Shown: in pieces, positions 2,476-58,403 of the stretch
Layout of the letters: every line of letters begins with the position of its first letter
Position numbering within the stretch: position 1 is the first letter of the stretch
From: Diplonema papillatum
Lineage: Eukaryota > Euglenozoa > Diplonemea > Diplonemida > Diplonemidae
NCBI GenBank assembly: GCA_030068145.1
Contig: JAPJBO010000248.1
Span: 124,001-188,000 of the forward strand
Length of the DNA stretch: 64,000 nucleotides
Direction: 5' to 3'
Notes under the pieces: model-generated
The model's input: only the letters and a program-made list of their open reading frames with translations
Database searches by the model: none
What the model was told of the DNA's origin: nothing
Translations under genes and position numbers: made by a program

Positions 2476-2956
2476 GTGTGCTGATTGTTTTGCTTTCTGC
2501 TTCAGTATTCTTCTCCCGGAAGGTGGCCACGTAGCCCCCCCCCCGCGAGATGTCGCAGCGAGTTGGTTTTCGTCGATTTCCTGAGACGGCATCGTTTACA
2601 GCAGTGGACTATGACGGTATTGTTTTTGTGCCTACCAAACGCAATTTTGCCGACAACAAAAACCGATCGATGGCAGCGTACGACGCGCCTCTGACGCAAC
2701 GACTCACGCCCGCCGGAGTCGTACAGGGCAGTAGTGGAACGACCGGATACTCCGGATAGCGCTGTGAAGAAGTCTCGGAACCCAAATCTCAAGATATGCC
2801 TGCGCCTTGATGCTCGGGACCGGCAGTACCGTGCACCCACAAAATTTTCTCACACTGTGGTCAGAATGGCCACAACATTTACCCACAATTCATTGTGGCA
2901 ATTGTGACCTGTTGAGGCGGATGAAAAATACTCGAGGGGCTGCCTTTGTGCTTACT

Positions 2957-3097
2957 TGTTGAACGCGCACGCCCGCCATTGAACCCAGATTCACCTGCGT
3001 TTCGTGTGGGCTACAGCACATTTACCTCATTTGATCCTTTGAGGCTGGCAGCCTCCTCAAGTATTTCCTTCAAAGCAGGTGCTTATACAAAGGAAAT
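2957..3097 (+). repeat. Dispersed repeat family A (diverged copy)
   Basis: A degenerate copy of the element seen at 8,998, 17,370, 46,438 and 58,229. It contains TTTCGTGTGGGCTACAGCAC and ends in GGTGCTTATACAAAG. No exon is apparent next to this copy. Confidence 0.65.
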
Positions 3098-3178
3098 GAA
3101 AAAGGACAGGTCGGCAGTAGAGGGGGGGGGGCGCCAGCGGCAGCGGATTTTCCAATCATCCGCTGCGAGTGCGGCGCC

Positions 3179-6575: not shown

Positions 6576-6763
6576 GTCGCTTCCACCCACGTGGCATTGA
6601 ATCAGGGAATGGCTGGTCTTCGTGTAGGCGCCGAGCTGAAGGGGATAACATCTTAGGTTCATCAGTTTAGACAGAGCACTGCCTCTCATACATGATTTGA
6701 TGCTAGCATTTTCAAGTCTTCTTCGGAGACCTGATGCTAAGAGGAGGTGGGAGATGGGCATAC

Positions 6764-8994: not shown

Positions 8995-9139
8995 CTTCAA
9001 TGCTTACACCCGCCACTAAACCCAGATTTTGCTGTGTTTCGTGTGGGCTACAGCACATTTACCTCCTTTGATCTATCGCAACTGGCAGTCTCCTCAAGCA
9101 TTTCCTACAAAGCGGGTGCTTATGCAAAAAAAAAAAAAA
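8995..9139 (+). repeat. Family A repeat at a 5' splice site (introner-like)
   Basis: A good copy of family A, with TTTCGTGTGGGCTACAGCAC and a terminal GGTGCTTATGCA followed by about 14 A. On the minus strand the exon end is followed by GTATGTGC and then directly by the T-run of this repeat. The repeat therefore starts about 8 nt inside the PX intron. Confidence 0.8.
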
Positions 9140-9147
9140 GCACATAC

Positions 9148-9635
9148 CGGCGTTGGATCTGCGACCGCTCTGATTCGAGGAAGCGCTTGATCTTCGAGGG
9201 AAACTCCGGGATGTGCAAATGCTGGCCCCGCTCGACCTTGAGGATCGTCGTGTGCAGCTTGTAGAACTCCGAGTACCGCTTCATGACCTCCCAGCTGCCC
9301 GCGGCGCTGGTGCACTGCACCACGTAGGCGATGAACGTGGTGCCCTTGCGGCCGCCGCCGCCGGCGCGGGCGGACGGATCCTTCGGGCTGAGCGGCATTT
9401 CGCACGGCGAGTTCCCGAAGTCGTCGGCCGGCGCGTTCGGGTTCGAGAGCATGACCTTGTAGTGCGGGATGGCGACCGTCAGCTGGCTTGCGCTCTGCGC
9501 ACTCTCCCGTGGGGACTTCAGCGGCTCCTCGCGCAGCCCTTTGAACACCTCGGGCTTGATCGTGTCCCCGAAGGCATCGTGCTCCGCGGAGACCGCATTC
9601 AGCGCCTTCCAGCTGTGGTGCTGCACTGCCGTCAT
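9148..9635 (-). CDS. PX (phox homology) domain protein, first recognised exon
   Basis: PX domains bind phosphoinositides and place proteins on endosomal and other membranes. After an Ala/Pro/Ser-rich leader the exon codes for FIAYVVQCTSAAGSWEVMKR, then YSEFYKLH (the RYsdF-type basic motif), a linker, and the IPEFPSK segment matching the Pro-rich loop. It ends with RFLESERSQIQR, which runs into the next exon. The start is taken as the ATG giving MTAVQHH; an acceptor a little upstream cannot be excluded. The intron cuts the last PX helix. The best match is a sorting nexin or other PX-only protein. Confidence 0.8.
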
Positions 9636-10194
9636 GGGATGGGGGGCAGTGGGAGAAGGTACACTGGTTGCTTGCTTATCCACGCGCGCGGTGCTTGCAC
9701 CACTGGAGGCCAGGGTTTGCGCGCGGGTGCGTGTGTGGGGGAAGGGTGTTTTCTTGCTTTTTTTCGCGTGGTGTCGACGGCAGTAACCGGTGCTGACGTG
9801 CTGCCCTTGCGGTTTGCTTCGGGTTTTGTGTTTTTCAGAATTCTGGTTAGGAGTTAGCTTGAGAATCCGGGATTTTAGAGTCCCCGGGTGACCTTCGTCG
9901 AATGGGTTCTTTTGAAGCTAATACGTACTGGGTGGGTTTGGGGGGGGGGGGTCGTTGTTGTTGTTGTGCTGGTGGTTTTGTGGGATGAAGTAGGGGAAAG
10001 AAAATTTCTTTTTGCGGTGGTCTCCGCTGGCCTGGTAGTCCGTGCTACCTCCTTTCTTTTACACTCGTTCTCTTCTCTACTCACTACTGTACGTACTCTT
10101 TCGCTCTTTTTCTCTCTTTGGCTAGCCAAAACAAAAGACTTCTGCGACCGACACCACGAACACATTCGCAATGAATGTGGCCCTGGGCCCCCCA
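9636..10194. other. Spacer upstream of the PX gene
   Basis: No gene seen. It contains a short family O repeat at about 9,850-9,920 (GAATCCGGGATTTTAGAGTC, then GGTGACCTTCGTCGAATGGG), which recurs near 4,540, 21,095, 46,235, 48,515 (reversed) and 61,440. A G-run lies near 9,940. Confidence 0.5.
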
Positions 10195-10372
10195 CGTGCA
10201 TACATGTTGAGCAGGGGTTGCCATGTAGCCCGTATCGGTCTAAGTCAACACTGTTACTTTCATGGGATGTTCACCGGGGAAGGGTCCGACCTAACCGTTA
10301 GTCAACAGCAACGTCGAAAAGGGGGAGGGGGAAAGAAGATAGAAAATCGGTGGGGTTGACAAGCTCGTAAGT
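10195..10372 (+). repeat. Dispersed repeat family M
   Basis: Contains TTGAGCAGGGGTTGCCATGT and AGTCAACAGCAACGTCGAAA. A near-identical copy lies at about 41,825-41,985. It flanks the 3' side of the Penelope-like element, but the second copy has no such element beside it. Confidence 0.75.
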
Positions 10373-13300
10373 GGTTGTTTGTAGATCAGTACAACCTTAA
10401 ACTACGCCTAGCACACGGCCAGGCGGTCTTTAACGAACCTCCAGTACATTAAACGCAAGTCGGCAGGTCGTCATCAGACGCGGCACGAAAAGCAAACGTC
10501 GCCGACGCAGCACTTCAGCAATGCGTCCTCTTATTTACAGTGGGCACCGTACCTGAACTCAGCCCCGCTAGGCCGAGATTCCGGCTGTTCCGCAGGGCAT
10601 ACATCACTCCCCGAAGTTGACGTACGTGCAGAGACGTTCGTGCACATGCAGGCCTCTGAGGCCCCGGAACAATCGACCGTCCTTGGTGCGGTCGGTGAAG
10701 CAGCGCTTGCAGCGCAGTTCCGGGGGGTCCTTGGGCTGTTCAGGTGGCTGGTCGTGTGCTGCCAAAGCAGCGTCGGAGGGCATGGGTTGGCAAGATGCCA
10801 GATTCGCGTCGGTACAGGGCGGACTAGAAGGTATCAGCGGGACCTGCAGTGGGACTGTTGTTGCCATCATAGTAGGTGATGGCAAGCGTTCGACCACCTC
10901 GTGGGACGCATTGGGGATTCGTACGTATGCGGCGAGGTATATGTCAGTCCAAGGAACGTTGTCGACGTGCAAGACTCGTTCGTCATCGAAAAGCGTCCAT
11001 TGCATCCCTTGCAAGACGTATGTGACAAAATGGCCGCTTGTCGTATTTTGTCCCGTGTGTACAACCACCGCGGAAAGGCGTAGTGTGCCGTCCGGCAGTC
11101 GCAGGAGGAGCGGTAGGGAAGCGTCATTCCGTAGTCTCGCACCATCGCTTGCGTAAATGCCGAACTGCAACAGCAGGCACTCGGACGCCACATGCACGTT
11201 CATGGTCTCCACAACGGATCCAGCAGCTCCGCAGTCACACCTCCTCTCCGGATTCATAATTCCACGAACACAGAATGCGTCCTCCACCGGCCTTCCACGA
11301 GGGACTTGAAGACACCGTACCAGTTGATGACGGGTGGATGTGGCGCCACAGGCGATACATCGTGTTGTTGTCGTCATCGTGTTTTCCAGGCACGTCTGGA
11401 AAAGCCGCCAATCCGGACAAGCCTCCGTCGTCTCGTCCGGCCCTAGGGAGCTGTCTGTCCTATCCAGAATTGCAACCAAAGCCTCGTGCGCGTCGTGCTG
11501 TCGCGCATCGCAGAACATTGGGAGCATGGCGAGGATTGTTTCAGCCCCTATCCTTCGGCTGTCTTGGCTGAGCTGGCTCCTCCCCGAGCGCGAGCTTACC
11601 AGTAGGACGAAGTACGTCAAGAACTCCTTCAGGAACCCCCGGAAATTCAGAGGATTCTGCGCAAGACTGTAATACATGTTCTCGATCGGTTCCACACGCA
11701 ACAAGAGCTGCAGTACCGCATTGAGAAAACAAGTATTCCCAAGGTTCGGGAGGCCGGCAGGTTCAAACGGTGACGGGTCGAACATGCGGGAGGGCCGTTG
11801 GATACAAATGACAGCTTGGCGGCCGACAGCGGGTGATGATTCCAGCATGTCAGGCACTGCATGGGACACGTCGCAGCGCCGTTTCGGTCCAGGCTGAGCA
11901 GCCTCATCGTCTCTGCGCTTGCGCTTTCCTTTAGTCGTCCCATCCTGGGGCACAAGATCACGACGCTGCTTCGGAGCCGCAGTGGAAGGCCGATCGGGCG
12001 TATCTCGTTCCGTTCGTGTGCCAGGTCGAGGACGGTCCCTGTATCTCACGAAGGCCTTCTCAGCGAGCAGCCTCTCGACCGCTTGGTCGATGGACTCCAA
12101 GTCGGGCATCTGCAGAATGCGTTCCACTTCATGTACGAGCCACACGAAGTGCGCACGGATCTTCTCGCAGTGATCACCGAACTTCGCTTCTGGGTACGTG
12201 TCTAGTAACCATTTACGAAACCCACTTTTTAAGACACTCTTGCGGTACCCCCGTCTCATGAGCTTCAGCACCGTGTTGTTCATCTCGGTCTTAAAGTCAT
12301 GGAGGTTGTTCGCAATCCTGCCGTTACGCACAAGCGCTCCGATGAGGATACTCGACCCAAAGTTCGATGGAGCCGTGGAGAGCACGGATGTGTACGCCAA
12401 GGGCTGGTATCGGTATGCCTTCGCTTTGTCGAGGACTGACAGGCGCATGTATCTCCTCCCGGACATCTCGGAGACTTCATGTCGAATCCGAATACCAAGG
12501 AAAGTGGCGTCCCCAACCTTGGCGTTTGTCTGTTTGTACCTCATGTTGTACACAGATTCCGGTGGGGGTTTTGTGCCGAAACACAACAGATCGTCAATGA
12601 AGCGGCGTGTCAGGCTAAGCAATGCCGCACGTTGCGTGTCCCCGTCTTCCAAGAGTCGCATCATGTATTTTCGCTCTTTCGCATAGCAAAAGAGGTTGGC
12701 GATGTCCGGGGAAGCGTTCGCACCCATTGGGATGCCTAGCGTCTGCCTCATGAGAACCCTATTGACCAGAACATAGGTATTCACCAGGCAGAAAGACAAG
12801 AGGGTCTTGAGCTCCTGCGCCGAATACGCTGCTTCATGTGACCGTACCTCCGTGTTTACCTTAAAGGCGAAACAGCGCTTCTTACGAGTCGGCCCGTGTT
12901 GGCTCTTCGGACGTACTAATACGAGTCTTCCCGCGTCCACGTTCAAACGTGCAGCCTCCGCCGCGAAGGCCTCATTAATCGTGTCCGCAACCGCATTAAG
13001 AAGCTCCTCAAGCTCCAGCTGGTCATACATCGTTGTGAAGTCAAATGTACCAGCGTCCAGCTGCGCGAGTTCGTCCGCGTGTGTCTTCAGGAAGAAGGCC
13101 GTGTCGTCGCTCGACTCCGTGATCCAGAAGTACCGGTACCCAGTCGCGTTGAACCGAATGTCGTCTTCCCGCCGGAGGATGCTCATGATCGCCTTCAGCA
13201 AGCCGGTCAGGTCCAGTTGCGCGTCCGTCGTAGACGAGAACGTGGTCTTAGGGCGGGCGTCCCGTCCAGCATCGGCCGCCTCGGAGTCGGAGTCGACACA

Positions 13301-15535
13301 GTTCTTCCGCGAAACCCCAGCGATGTACCGCATGGACGTCACTTCCTTGTGCAGCTTCAGGGTGCCATATAGGTATGGGAGGACGTTCGATGAGTGTAAT
13401 CCTTCCCGTCCGAGGTAGGCCTTGTGCCTCGCAATGACTTGTTGAGGCGTCTCTTCGCTCGGGGAGTAGTTCGTACTGTGATTGACCTTCGCGTGTAAGT
13501 CCTGGTTGTAAAATCTTTTACACACGAAGCCGAAATCATGCGAGCTCTTGTCCACGGGCAGGATCACGAGATGTTCCTGCAACTCCAACAGTTTTTTACG
13601 CGCTCCAGCCGTCAGCTCCGGATCGGCTCCCACCCGGGAGAGGTCAACCGTGGCTAGTATCTTCCTCCGTAGCATCCTTGCGAAGTGCGGAGGGGCGTCC
13701 TTGAATTGCTCCTCAACGAACTGGGTCACAGCTTTGTCGACCTCCCTGCAAACGGCTTCTTCCCCACCGTCCGGTCGGAACTTGCGACCCTTGTCAAAAA
13801 GCGAAATTAGCTCGCTCGACGTTTTGAGGAGGTGTGCCTGCCCGCACGCATGCCCTTGGATGTGGTATCCGTCTAGAAGGTAGCGTTGGCAAGGGCATTC
13901 ACCAGGGGGAGGGGCCGGGGCAGCAGTTGTTTGTCGCGAAACATCCGTAAAGTTTGACAGAAGGACCCCGAGGGGAGGATTAAGCGACGTGGAAACCCTC
14001 GTGTTCACGAAGTCCGTTGAGTCCGCGAGCATTTCACGGAGTTCGGTATCGTGACGGAAAACGGCGGCTAGCTTCCTTTCATCCATCATCTTGCTCACCT
14101 GCCGTATGCAGAACCAAGGCGTTCGTGCTGCACTCTTTTTCTTCTTCGCAAGATGGTTGATCTCACTAAGCCTCGCCGTGAGCAGCTCGTCCAGGATTGC
14201 TACCTTCGGGTGCTGCAGGTGCTCAACCATGAACATTCGCACCCAGGTACGAACTCTGTAAACGCGGCTCTTCATCCACGGGTTCACGTCGTATGCCCGT
14301 AGGGTGTCCTCATCGAGTCCGAACATGTAATGCAGCTGCTTCCGGATGCCGAAGTATCGGCCTCGACTTTGGTCCACGTGGATCTGCCCATCCTTCACAT
14401 GCACCCAGGCGTCTCCGCGCTCTCGAGGATATTCCGGGGTAGACTGCCCGCTGTCCGGTTTGCCCTTGAACGACGGAGCAGATCGCGGCTTCTTACCTCG
14501 CTTGTTAAAGCCGCTTGCAGTACTAACCATATTGAACTGCGGCTTTAGCCTCGCGATGAAAGCCATTTCTATCGGCTCGGCAACTTTGTCGAAGTTACCC
14601 CCAGCCGCATAGAACGCTTCTGGGACGTCGTAGAGGATGAACGCGTAAGGCGGCGAGGGGAGGTTCTGCAAGTGTCGCTTGAACCTGTCCTGCTTGGTGT
14701 TCCGGCCAGACCAATGCTTTGTAACCCGCTCCTGCATCGTCTTGCTCGTCTTGCCGATGTACAGCAGGTTGGCGTGGGCATCAACTAGTCCGTAGATGAG
14801 ACCCGTAGCGCGGTAGTTGCTCGCGTCTGTCGGGCGCTGGAGTCTCATCGTCGCGTACGTGTGGTCTAGGAGCCTGCGATACCTCTTCTGGAACCGGGCC
14901 GTAAACAGCTCGCCCTGCTCTTTCCACTTCGGCCAATCTATCTGTGTCGTCTTCTCCGTTTTGCCACGTACACAGTCAGTTTGGAAGAATGGTGCGAGAA
15001 AGGGCTTTGCGAACTCCGGGCGTCGCCGCATGTCCGCGTCAGCTGGTGGCAAACGTACCATGTTGACCGCGAAGCTCTTGCGAGGATTGTGGGGCCGGGT
15101 CCGTATCGTAAAGGGTGGTGCTCTGTACAGGGATCGGGGTTGCCGGGGGTAGTAGAATGCGTCGGCTGAGGCGTTGACGGAACGTAACGGAACTGATTTG
15201 AATTGCTTGAGGGAGGCTGTGCACTGTACAAGGGGGTGGTAGTGGGATTGGGTGGTGAGCGGGTTGCTGTTCTGGATTATCGGCGGTACTCTTCACGCGA
15301 CGTACACGGTGTTGTTGTTAGGGATGTCGGTTTGTTGCTAAGCTCAAGTCTTAGCGCGCTTTGTTCGGAGGGTGCGTTTTGTGATCTTGGTTGGGGGTTT
15401 TCCCGGTTTGTAGTAGCGAGGCCGCACGGGGGCAGGATGGCACCAAGCCTAGACTCTGCCCGGTCTCGTTGCCGATGTCTTGTGGTACAGCGGGGCGAAG
15501 TTAATGCGATTTAACCGTCTCCCTACCTGTACCGG
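10373..15535 (-). mobile_element. Penelope-like retroelement (approximate extent)
   Basis: The limits are approximate. The 3' side is set by the family M repeat at 10,372 and the 5' side by a G-run at 15,539. The single intact 1,485-codon frame at 10,604-15,061 suggests recent or current activity. I found no target-site duplication, no pseudo-LTR pair and no convincing hammerhead core by eye. Confidence 0.5.
10604..15061 (-). CDS. Penelope-like polyprotein: GIY-YIG + RT + USP protease + CCHC finger
   Basis: One uninterrupted frame of 1,485 residues. Residues 87-180 form a GIY-YIG endonuclease: LIYGL and LLYIGKT at 88-104, R112, E162, N177. Residues 389-410 hold a Cys/His cluster (CPCQRYLLDGYHIQGHAC). 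Residues 500-860 are a Penelope-type reverse transcriptase: LPVDKSSHDFGFVCKRFY, motif A FDFTTMYDQL with D674, GIPMGANASP at 776-785 and the FIDD catalytic box at 821-824. A basic, NLS-like linker follows (KGKRKRR and PKRRC, 1044-1063). Residues 1103-1382 are a ubiquitin-specific protease: Cys box LPNLGNTCFLNAVLQLL with C1111, QHDAHE at 1188-1193, CxxC/CxC finger at 1235-1238 and 1275-1277, and His box SGHFVTYV with H1344 and D1359/D1360. A CxxC...HxHxxxC finger (1451-1478) ends the protein. An N-terminal GIY-YIG is typical of the permuted Chlamys/Naiad-type clades. The USP domain is, to my knowledge, new. The frame stays open for about 77 codons upstream of the chosen ATG. Confidence 0.93.
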   Translation of the reverse strand: MVRLPPADADMRRRPEFAKPFLAPFFQTDCVRGKTEKTTQIDWPKWKEQGELFTARFQKRYRRLLDHTYATMRLQRPTDASNYRATGLIYGLVDAHANLLYIGKTSKTMQERVTKHWSGRNTKQDRFKRHLQNLPSPPYAFILYDVPEAFYAAGGNFDKVAEPIEMAFIARLKPQFNMVSTASGFNKRGKKPRSAPSFKGKPDSGQSTPEYPRERGDAWVHVKDGQIHVDQSRGRYFGIRKQLHYMFGLDEDTLRAYDVNPWMKSRVYRVRTWVRMFMVEHLQHPKVAILDELLTARLSEINHLAKKKKSAARTPWFCIRQVSKMMDERKLAAVFRHDTELREMLADSTDFVNTRVSTSLNPPLGVLLSNFTDVSRQTTAAPAPPPGECPCQRYLLDGYHIQGHACGQAHLLKTSSELISLFDKGRKFRPDGGEEAVCREVDKAVTQFVEEQFKDAPPHFARMLRRKILATVDLSRVGADPELTAGARKKLLELQEHLVILPVDKSSHDFGFVCKRFYNQDLHAKVNHSTNYSPSEETPQQVIARHKAYLGREGLHSSNVLPYLYGTLKLHKEVTSMRYIAGVSRKNCVDSDSEAADAGRDARPKTTFSSTTDAQLDLTGLLKAIMSILRREDDIRFNATGYRYFWITESSDDTAFFLKTHADELAQLDAGTFDFTTMYDQLELEELLNAVADTINEAFAAEAARLNVDAGRLVLVRPKSQHGPTRKKRCFAFKVNTEVRSHEAAYSAQELKTLLSFCLVNTYVLVNRVLMRQTLGIPMGANASPDIANLFCYAKERKYMMRLLEDGDTQRAALLSLTRRFIDDLLCFGTKPPPESVYNMRYKQTNAKVGDATFLGIRIRHEVSEMSGRRYMRLSVLDKAKAYRYQPLAYTSVLSTAPSNFGSSILIGALVRNGRIANNLHDFKTEMNNTVLKLMRRGYRKSVLKSGFRKWLLDTYPEAKFGDHCEKIRAHFVWLVHEVERILQMPDLESIDQAVERLLAEKAFVRYRDRPRPGTRTERDTPDRPSTAAPKQRRDLVPQDGTTKGKRKRRDDEAAQPGPKRRCDVSHAVPDMLESSPAVGRQAVICIQRPSRMFDPSPFEPAGLPNLGNTCFLNAVLQLLLRVEPIENMYYSLAQNPLNFRGFLKEFLTYFVLLVSSRSGRSQLSQDSRRIGAETILAMLPMFCDARQHDAHEALVAILDRTDSSLGPDETTEACPDWRLFQTCLENTMTTTTRCIACGATSTRHQLVRCLQVPRGRPVEDAFCVRGIMNPERRCDCGAAGSVVETMNVHVASECLLLQFGIYASDGARLRNDASLPLLLRLPDGTLRLSAVVVHTGQNTTSGHFVTYVLQGMQWTLFDDERVLHVDNVPWTDIYLAAYVRIPNASHEVVERLPSPTMMATTVPLQVPLIPSSPPCTDANLASCQPMPSDAALAAHDQPPEQPKDPPELRCKRCFTDRTKDGRLFRGLRGLHVHERLCTYVNFGE

Positions 15536-16115
15536 TTGGGGGGGGGGGGGGGTCATGCATGGCTTCTTTCGTGCACACTTTTGCTTGCTTGCTTTGGTAA
15601 GCCAGGTTCGTAACAATTTGTGACCAACGCCAAGATCTCACCAGGGGTTTCTTTCGTTTCGCGGCTCGCGTTTGTTTGTGGACAGACGCCGGTGGTGGAT
15701 TCGGCGGGCTGCCTCTTTTCTCTCTTCACGTCGTATGATTCCCTGAGATGTTCGCTTCGGCTTGAGCACTCGGGATGATGACACAGGAGAGGGATAGGGG
15801 CCGGGGAGGGAGGGTCCCGCCCGAGATCAAGGAAAGACAAGCATTGAGATTTCGTCGCGAGGTGACCCCTCGCCCGCTAAAATACCCTCTCTCAGGCCCT
15901 CCCCCCCTCAGGCCCTCACCCCGTCTCAGGCCCTCACCCCCTCTCAGGCCCTCACCCCCTCGCCATTTTTTTTTTTTTCGCGTCAAAGTTCCTGTACCTG
16001 GCCCTTGGCTCCCTTTGAAAAAAGGTTGAGCTCTGGGCCTCCTGCGTCCGGCGGGTGTTACTTGATCGATTCCCTGCTTGGTTTTGGGTCGCGCTTTCTT
16101 TGCCCTCGCTGGACT
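15062..16115. other. Spacer 5' of the retroelement
   Basis: The first about 230 bp are an open continuation of the retroelement frame without an ATG. A run of about 14 G lies at 15,539-15,552. At about 15,890-15,965 an 18-20 bp C-rich minisatellite (CAGGCCCTCACCCC) occurs in four copies. No gene seen. Confidence 0.5.
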
Positions 16116-16129
16116 GCTTTTCTCACGCC

Positions 16130-16845
16130 CCTGGGCACGGTTTGCCTCAGTGTGCTTTTCTCACGGTTTGCCTCAGTGTGCTTTTCTCACGGTTTGCCTC
16201 AGTGTGCTTTTCTCACGGTTTGCCTCAGTGTGCTTTTCTCACGGTTTGCCTCAGTGTGCTTTTCTCACGGTTTGCCTCAGTGTGCTTTTCTCACGGTTTG
16301 CCTCAGTGTGCTTTTCTCACGGTTTGCCTCAGTGTGCTTTTCTCACGGTTTGCCTCAGTGTGCTTTTCTCACGGTTTGCCTCAGTGTGCTTTTCTCACGG
16401 TTTGCCTCAGTGTGCTTTTCTCACGGTTTGCCTCAGTGTGCTTTTCTCACGGTTTGCCTCAGTGTGCTTTTCTCACGGTTTGCCTCAGTGTGCTTTTCTC
16501 ACGGTTTGCCTCAGTGTGCTTTTCTCACGGTTTGCCTCAGTGTGCTTTTCTCACGGTTTGCCTCAGTGTGCTTTTCTCACGGTTTGCCTCAGTGTGCTTT
16601 TCTCACGGTTTGCCTCAGTGTGCTTTTCTCACGCCCCTGGGCACGGTTTGCCTCGGTGTGCTTTTCTCACGGTTTGCCTCAGTGTGCTTTTCTCATGGTT
16701 TGCCTCAGTGTGCTTTTCTCACGGTTTGCCTCAGTGTGCTTTTCTCACGGTTTGCCTCAGTGTGCTTTTCTCACGCCCCTGGGCACGGTTTGCCTCGGTG
16801 TGCTTTTCTCACGCCCCTGGGCACGGTTTGCCTCAGTGTACGAGG
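16130..16845 (+). repeat. 26-bp minisatellite, about 27 copies
   Basis: The unit is TTTGCCTCAGTGTGC plus TTTTCTCACGG, almost perfectly repeated. At four points a 13-bp insert (CCCCTGGGCACGG) interrupts it. Because 26 is not a multiple of three and the unit lacks stops, all plus-strand frames stay open. The resulting long frames are not evidence of a gene. Confidence 0.95.
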
Positions 16846-17369: not shown

Positions 17370-17515
17370 TTGTTGAACGCTTACCCGCCACTAAACCCAG
17401 ATTTACCTGTGTTTCGTGTGGGCTGCAGCACATTTACCTCCTTTGTCTATCGCAACTGGCAGACTGGCAGTCTCTTCAAGCATTTCCTACAAAGCAGGTG
17501 CGTATACAAAAAAAG
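17370..17515 (+). repeat. Dispersed repeat family A
   Basis: Well-preserved copy: CCGCCACTAAACCCAGATTT, then the GGGCTGCAGCACATTTACC block, ending in GGTGCGTATACAAAAAAAG. No exon could be recognised beside it, so it may lie in an intron or intergenic DNA. Confidence 0.7.
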
Positions 17516-17964
17516 AAGGTGCTTTTATCCTTCGCTTTGTCTGACGAACGGGGGAGGGGGGGTCGATCCTGTTTTTGGCTTTGTAGGTTCTCTCGACTCC
17601 CCAAATCGTGGTTAGCACAAACTCAAGAGGTCTAGTCAACGTTTCCCTGCAGGATTAGCATACTTTGTTTGTGCGTACGTGTGTAAACCCTGTTTTGAGT
17701 GATTTAACACAGCACGCTGCCATCCGACACTTTTTGATATAGACAAGCAAGCTTGTTACCATAAAAAAAAATGACGATCCCCTCCTCCCCTGCAAACCCC
17801 ATAGATTTCCCCTCGGTTTGATGGGTGATGCGCCGATGCTCCGGGTTTTTGTGGGCGGGCCCGCTGGTCCTTCGGTGTGGCCGAGCAATTCCGGCCAAAA
17901 TGATTTCGGCAGATTGCGGCGACCGAAGAACCTTTTTTTCGTTGGACTACCCAGTGTGCGCACG

Positions 17965-46234: not shown

Positions 46235-46602
46235 TTTTTGTGGAGTTATAGTTCGCTTACGAATCCGGGATTTCAGAGTCTCCGGGTGACCTTCGTCGAA
46301 TGGGTTATTTTTGTGTTGGCACTCTTCCTGTGTTCCCTTGTAGCTCGACTACGAAGGCTGGTGTGACGAAAAGTCGCTTCGCTTTGCGTGCGCATGCTCG
46401 TTGACAGAAAAACACAACGACAAAGTGGGTGTTTTTGTAACGCTTACGCCCGCCATTGAACCCAGACTTACCTGTGTTTCGTGTGGGCTACAGCACATTT
46501 ACATCCTTTGATGGCAGTCTCCTCAAGCATTTTCTACAACGCAGGTGCTTATACAAAAGAAAAAAGGAGGTAGGGTATGGAAAGAGGGGGAAGGCAGCAT
46601 AC
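46235..46602 (+). repeat. Family O and family A repeats in intron or spacer
   Basis: Family O at about 46,235-46,312 (GAATCCGGGATTTCAGAGTC). Family A at 46,438-46,562, with its A-rich end (CTTATACAAAAGAAAAAAGG) about 37 nt from the GTATGC donor of the next exon. Confidence 0.75.
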
Positions 46603-58204: not shown

Positions 58205-58403
58205 ACAAAGTGGGTATTCTTGCACTGTTGAACGCTTACGCCCGCCACTAAACCCAGATTTACCTGTGTTTCGTGTGGGCTACAGCACATTTACCTCCTT
58301 TGATCTTTTGCAACTGGCAGCCTCCTCAAGCATTTCCTACAAAGCAGGAGTCCCATGGCTTAGCAGGTGCTGATAAAAATAAAAAAAAGGAGACAAGCCA
58401 TAC
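58205..58403 (+). repeat. Family A repeat at the 5' end of rhamnosidase intron 2
   Basis: CCGCCACTAAACCCAGATTT to GCAGGTGCTGATAAAAATAAAAAAAAGG. Its A-rich end lies about 15 nt from the GTATGG donor of the exon at 58,404 (minus strand). Confidence 0.8.

Follow-up and report, generated by a model that had tools for sequence, protein, structure and literature searches.

A long open frame in the genome of the marine protist Diplonema papillatum raises the question of whether a Penelope-like retrotransposon can encode a USP-type deubiquitinase and, if so, what a ubiquitin-removing enzyme would do for it. The frame lies in a 64,000-nucleotide stretch of DNA that was analysed as a whole (the window) and is read on the minus strand from 15061 to 10604, comprising 1,485 codons from ATG to TGA. 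An in-frame stop is found 78 codons upstream of the ATG, and the probability of 1,485 stop-free codons arising by chance was estimated from the base composition at about 2e-25. An initial reading of the DNA letters alone (the sequence-only reading) had given the same coordinates without naming the strand, and the residue numbers of its motifs agree with the translation; the C-terminal Cys/His finger, the further copies and the ends of the element go beyond it.

Domain architecture of the predicted polyprotein

The polyprotein comprises, in order, an N-terminal GIY-YIG nuclease, a Penelope-type reverse transcriptase (RT), an NLS-like basic linker, a complete USP and a C-terminal Cys/His finger (Table 1).

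Table 1. Features of the element in the window. Positions are those of the window; residues are those of the 1,485-residue protein.
Feature	Position	Strand	Basis
Element copy, 5' UTR truncated, coding frame complete	9952..15537	-	compared with 26 other loci of the family and 3 sister-family loci
Single ORF, 1,485 aa, ATG to TGA	10604..15061	-	14 full-length stop-free genomic copies, including that of the window
GIY-YIG nuclease domain, residues 84-180 (LIYGL...LLYIGKT...R112...E165...N177)	14522..14812	-	PF01541 match at 88-130
Cys/His-rich motif CPC...HACGQAH, residues 387-412	13826..13903	-	mostly invariant in three-sequence alignment
Penelope-type RT core, residues 495-960 (D674, IPMGANASPD 777, FIDD 821)	12182..13579	-	motifs, aligned relatives, tree
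Bipartite NLS-like basic stretch, residues 1044-1063 (KGKRKRR...KRRC)	11873..11932	-	sequence
USP deubiquitinase domain, residues 1102-1385	10907..11758	-	Pfam UCH; PDB sequence matches
Catalytic Cys 1111 codon	11729..11731	-	motif positions and USP alignment
USP finger cysteines C1235, C1238, C1275, C1277	11231..11359	-	motif positions and USP alignment
Catalytic His 1344 codon	11030..11032	-	motif positions and USP alignment
Asp 1359-1360, third triad position	10982..10987	-	motif positions and USP alignment
C-terminal finger CKRC...H...C, residues 1451-1478	10628..10711	-	sequence; conserved with P0002 and P0044
3' UTR, terminus ACAACAACAACGA	9952..10603	-	last part recurs upstream of other copies as pseudo-LTR
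C-run (12), 3' junction	9940..9951	-	junction comparison
C-run (15), 5' truncation junction	15538..15552	-	junction comparison

The GIY-YIG domain (LIYGL at residue 88, YIGKT at 101) scored narrowly above the PF01541 cut-off (E 9.8e-5; 23.0 vs 22.6 bits), and R112, E165 and N177, which we take to be residues of the GIY-YIG pattern, were invariant in a three-sequence alignment. The Cys/His-rich motif that follows may correspond to one found in Penelope-like elements (PLEs). No Pfam RT model matched the RT part of the window protein, and the identity of this domain rests on its motifs (DFTTMY 674, FIDD 821) and on alignment with relatives, of which P0038 exceeds the RVT_1 cut-off (30.3 vs 29.6 bits). 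The window RT aligned with P0009, P0010 and P0038, and weakly with P0042, an RT with a C-terminal GIY-YIG domain; with a profile of RT and USP together, the best 60 of 102 PDB matches were all USPs. P0002 and P0003 have basic clusters at matching positions of an otherwise divergent linker. The C-terminal finger motif was also recognized by eye in P0009, which lacks a USP.

The claim of a complete C-terminal USP was borne out by Pfam, with UCH (PF00443) matching residues 1103–1368 at E 5.1e-23 (82.4 bits vs a cut-off of 23.9; profile positions 2–240 of 254). The near-full profile is accompanied by the further hallmarks of USPs (peptidase C19), namely a Cys/His/Asp-or-Asn triad and finger cysteines, and the motifs comprise GNTCF 1108 (Cys 1111), QHDAHE 1188, CIACG 1235, CDCG 1275, GHFVTY 1343 (His 1344) and FDD 1358. 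The closest PDB sequence matches of the window USP were USP36, USP12 and USP46, and a profile of seven element USPs retrieved USP12 at E 4.8e-26 with the Cys, DAHE and His boxes aligned. The triad Cys and His were invariant in all seven aligned USPs, and the third position was Asp or Asn, with its placement uncertain in P0023. The element USP thus shares the UCH profile, Cys box, QHDAHE, finger and His box with cellular USP12/46 and USP36 but, unlike cellular USPs, is fused to an RT. Towards USPs of the host genome, identities of about 21–25% over long alignments were obtained for five of six sampled, and the sixth aligned over 34 residues. The 1,485-residue protein is therefore predicted to carry a complete USP-type deubiquitinase; that it would remove ubiquitin, and from which target, we infer from sequence.

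Selection on this domain was estimated by comparing L037 (P0002 family) with L028 (P0003 family), one copy per subfamily at a dS of about 0.6. The dN/dS was 0.050 for the RT and 0.212 (0.152–0.297) for the USP, while the linker gave 0.331 before the USP and 0.591 (0.326–1.028) after it. Between the window and L028, where dS is near saturation, the corresponding values were 0.073 for the RT, 0.154 for the USP and 0.206 for the linker. The low dN/dS of the USP, above that of the RT, means that the USP is constrained, less so than the RT, and purifying selection maintains it in the element. The roughly fourfold faster evolution of the USP relative to the RT could reflect weaker constraint.

Copies, ends and insertion sites in the genome

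The whole frame was found in seven other database proteins, all from D. papillatum; further searches added proteins of the ENA, JGI and lgn sources and a nematode USP (P0040). In a search of the 271 Mb assembly, the window protein matched at least 27 copies at 98–100% identity and four at 68% (31 scored of 1,258 candidates). Residues 1–1485 are spanned stop-free by 14 of the at least 27 copies, including that of the window; the other 13, mostly 5'-truncated, all extend to residue 1485, and one of them (L017) has one stop. With P0002 as query (34 matches), at least 18 copies were stop-free over residues 1–1499 and at least six further copies, at 86% identity, over 1–1498. P0010, an 870-residue query of RT and USP only, gave 52 matches, of which at least 39 were stop-free over 1–869 or 1–870 (20 at 99–100% identity, 5 at 91%, 4 at 74–75% and 10 at 72%); upstream of its family member L039 a GIY-YIG-like stretch lies in the same frame, and none was found in frame upstream of L038. 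Overall, at least 77 stop-free copies join RT and USP. These counts are lower bounds taken from the best-scoring matches and, since decayed copies score lower, they overstate the proportion that is intact. The available text of the genome paper warns of duplicated or collapsed repeats (PMC10161547); two of the copies, L013 and L014, have a common 3' flank and may be one locus assembled twice.

A genome search with the Pfam UCH profile scored 149 of 935 candidates, with 34 above the element copies and 112 of the remaining 115 in the score range and extent of the element, so that 112 of the 149 scored UCH matches look like element copies by these two measures. Among the best-scoring of 591 candidates for a USP query of the A/B/C type, all 144 scored matches were stop-free, the query's own locus included. 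The USP is left out of three NCBI gene models (P0003, P0004 and P0008), in P0004 by a splice that on the window would join a donor at 12049 to an acceptor at about 10735 on the minus strand. L028, of the P0003 family, nonetheless has an uninterrupted, full-length genomic frame, and the genomic copies corresponding to P0004 and P0008 continue to the end; the models are either predictor artefacts or USP-less isoforms.

The copies end alike on the 3' side, in CAACAACAACG with a C-run at most a base or two further on (26 of 27 loci; L025 stops earlier), and differ in their 5' ends. The 5' junctions were compared for 17 of the 27 loci, leaving aside L020 and nine loci whose unit continues beyond the fetched flank. 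C-runs of at least 7 were found no further than 40 nt from the 5' junction in 15 of these 17 loci (exceptions L006 and L023), compared with 67 of 3,400 random 5'-flank positions by the same measure; on the 3' side, 24 of 26 loci have such a run no more than 30 nt from the end (exceptions L006 and L020). The element prefers C-runs for insertion. Clean target duplications were seen in two of the 17 loci, of 38 bp (L006) and 37 bp (L022); L018 and L027 have short duplications of 11–12 bp that are mostly C, L019 shows only an 8-bp match off the junction, and no duplication was detected in the remaining 12 loci tested.

The full unit starts about 2.9 kb 5' of the ATG, and L003, which had been a candidate for full length, was rejected on this ground. 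Two supposed 5' truncations were likewise dismissed: L020 has an internal deletion, and L024, taken as truncated within the protein, reaches into the 5' UTR. When the upstream regions of six copies were inspected, four (L031, L032, L033 and L035) carried a pseudo-LTR made of the last 204–589 nt of the element's own 3' UTR (in L033 in two pieces), then CCCCCC and then the unit; the distance to the ATG was 2,963 nt in all four. The other two, L034 and L036 (the copy in the window), are cut within the 5' UTR at C-runs. Comparable pseudo-LTRs are described for PLEs in the available parts of two papers (PMC8969392, PMC3846280). Same-strand copies of the P0010 family occur 5,726 bp apart (three on C510) and 5,850 bp apart (two on C2819), a regular spacing that we read as putative tandems, and two copies of this family terminate in C7–C9.

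Some flanks hold further repeats. At 6620–7455 of L003, a P0002/P0003-type piece (80% to L028) directly follows the 3' C-run, as if one element had inserted beside the C-run of the other. Flanks are also shared between copies with different 5' ends, namely the 3' flanks of L001 and L026, and the 3' flank of L019 with the 5' flank of L026, a pattern that points to insertion at the C-runs of a single dispersed host repeat. Around the window copy, a repeat of about 130 bp at 9008–9135 and 17383–17517 was rejected as a pseudo-LTR, as it is dispersed over five places in the window (also 2945–3108, 46439–46565 and 58228–58348). A 26-bp satellite, with arrays of 19.2 and 5.2 units and some variants, occupies 16136–16839, just upstream of the insertion, and a putative minus-strand exon at 9120–9683, PX domain-like by eye, adjoins the element. 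A single PADLOC match (E 0.0055) was discarded as chance-like.

Relatives of the element and ancestry of its USP

A PLE-type RT, a GIY-YIG nuclease in the same frame, 5'-truncated copies and pseudo-LTRs or partial tandems, all characteristic of PLEs, were found here together. The nuclease is N-terminal, the domain position of the Chlamys/Naiad clade, to which the element may belong. Chlamys/Naiad elements, reportedly described by Craig et al. in 2021, are said to combine an N-terminal GIY-YIG, a PLE-type RT, 5' truncation and pseudo-LTRs, and the window element is like them in all four respects. It differs in its C-terminal USP and Cys/His finger, in its insertion at C-runs and in that no hammerhead ribozyme was found (no Rfam match; core words without the full pattern). 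Hammerhead ribozymes are common, not universal, in PLEs. By its predicted protein and its ends, the element is classed as a Penelope-like retrotransposon of the N-terminal GIY-YIG type that appears to have been recently active. Canonical Penelope/Poseidon elements also have RT and GIY-YIG in one frame and pseudo-LTRs, but their GIY-YIG is C-terminal and no protease is named in the available text (PMC11167929).

The nuclease, RT and USP occur in one chain in the window's family, P0002, P0044 and L039. Outside the host, P0023 (from ENA), about 45% identical in its RT region, carries several similar fingers in a row and ends in a USP, with no nuclease seen in the part before the RT. P0009 (also from ENA) comprises RT and finger without a UCH match, and P0028, P0033, P0035 and P0036, on short contigs, look like P0009 by eye and are probably USP-less. 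Since a close relative without USP exists, this RT lineage can do without the domain. Two further proteins end differently. P0018 combines an RT with a below-cut-off OTU match (E 6.4e-4; 20.7 vs 23.3 bits) and DnaJ, and its record has no GIY-YIG. P0017 has a GIY-YIG at 20.8 bits (cut-off 22.6), an RT and an end that is RING-like and cysteine-protease-like by eye; as its C-terminus gave nothing significant against Pfam or PDB sequences, "Josephin-like" is a motif reading only. None of 80 pattern matches on viral contigs encodes a relative.

In an RT tree of 20 rows chosen from 44 proteins, the USP label requires at least three changes. In the USP tree, a branch with support of 91/91 separates all element USPs from the rest, which are only six host-genome USPs and one nematode USP (P0040). 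The history of the USP may comprise one early capture with losses, or several captures. The element side includes a USP at C9:545000-547640 (L046, L047, L048), where a single frame joins it to a metallo-beta-lactamase-like part (PF00753, E 0.0057, below cut-off; no PDB sequence match of note). This USP is 57% identical to that of the window. It alone matched at 100%, and the remaining 143 scored matches, among the best-scoring of 591 candidates, lie at 52–61%. It was considered as a host donor gene and rejected: the element 3' UTR sits behind it (79% identity, E 1e-43), so that the USP derives from an element, and the frame is possibly an exapted element copy.

A tentative, broader reading is that deubiquitinase-type proteases of differing folds were acquired repeatedly by PLEs with an N-terminal GIY-YIG and by their close relatives, and that ubiquitin control would be general in their retrotransposition. 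The folds would possibly be USP in diplonemid and related elements, OTU-like in P0018 and papain/Josephin-like, near a RING-like finger, in P0017.

Ubiquitin proteases have been joined to mobile-element enzymes before. As the sequence-only reading had said, OTU or Ulp1 proteases are present in some other transposons; these are Ginger1, Mutator and Helitron elements in the available text of PMC2836005. Ginger1 resembles the window element in having a C-terminal ubiquitin/SUMO protease, and differs in its DNA transposase and in the fold of the protease (OTU or Ulp1). Closest in protease type is a Trichomonas vaginalis protein joining Transposase_11 to a peptidase C19; there the partner is a DNA transposase, and a single example is mentioned (PMC2836005). 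The suggestion that a USP joined to a Penelope RT is undescribed holds within the literature searched, mostly without subscription papers, where neither a USP nor another deubiquitinase was found described for a PLE, although a C19–transposase fusion was noted in 2010 (PMC2836005). The available main text of the D. papillatum genome paper has no mention of Penelope or ubiquitin (PMC10161547).

Possible roles of the tethered USP

The reading we favour, with a probability of roughly 0.6, is that of a recently active PLE with target-primed insertion at C/G-tracts, whose tethered USP would deubiquitinate in cis, either its own complex or proteins at the insertion site. The basic linker would bring the element protein into the nucleus, the GIY-YIG nuclease would open the DNA at C/G-tracts, and the RT would begin at the 3' end of the element RNA and copy it by target-primed reverse transcription. 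GIY-YIG nicking and a proposed target-primed synthesis are part of the PLE mechanism as given in the available text of PMC11167929. The tethered USP might then strip ubiquitin from the element's own protein–RNA complex, which would survive long enough to insert, or alternatively from chromatin or repair proteins at the insertion site. Action in cis is preferred because the USP and the RT belong to a single polypeptide in all USP-bearing families seen. Protection of the element from turnover, as proposed in the sequence-only reading, would be a fair idea.

The USP might instead serve as a counter-defence, working in trans on host proteins such as histone, PCNA or silencing factors, a reading that we regard as somewhat unlikely. 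The NLS-like linker and the faster evolution of the USP relative to the RT are consistent with such a role, as are the best PDB sequence matches (USP36, USP12 and USP46), cellular enzymes that have nuclear substrates. However, the mean USP dN/dS of 0.21 does not hint at positive selection on that scale, and the identity to these three USPs is low, so that the substrate cannot be inferred from them.

That the USP is a passenger, captured and tolerated without a role in mobility, appears improbable: the USP-less P0009 and its four probable counterparts would fit, but purifying selection on the domain, the invariant Cys and His and the stop-free state of all 144 scored matches (among the best-scoring of 591 candidates) argue against it. 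We give still less credence to a USP that cleaves the polyprotein or frees it from a ubiquitin fusion; a protease within a single polyprotein would suit such processing, but no ubiquitin-like Pfam domain was detected in the frame at E up to 10, and release from a ubiquitin-fused precursor, which the sequence-only reading had entertained, is further disfavoured by the position of the USP near the C-terminus. A host exon or assembly artefact joined to the RT, the objection raised beforehand against the fusion being real, is refuted by the intact copies across subfamilies (14, 18 and 6 at full length in three subfamilies, plus a second lineage, that of P0010), although some gene models around the copies are chimaeric.

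In the element, a ubiquitin-removing enzyme is physically tied to an RT, which suggests that the element interferes with the host ubiquitin system during its own copying. Involvement of the ubiquitin pathway in transposition has been suggested since 2010, as stated in the available text of PMC2836005, and the tethering of a USP to the RT offers a testable case for this suggestion. The system spans several families and is apparently young, and the role of the USP would be testable by the loss of one cysteine.
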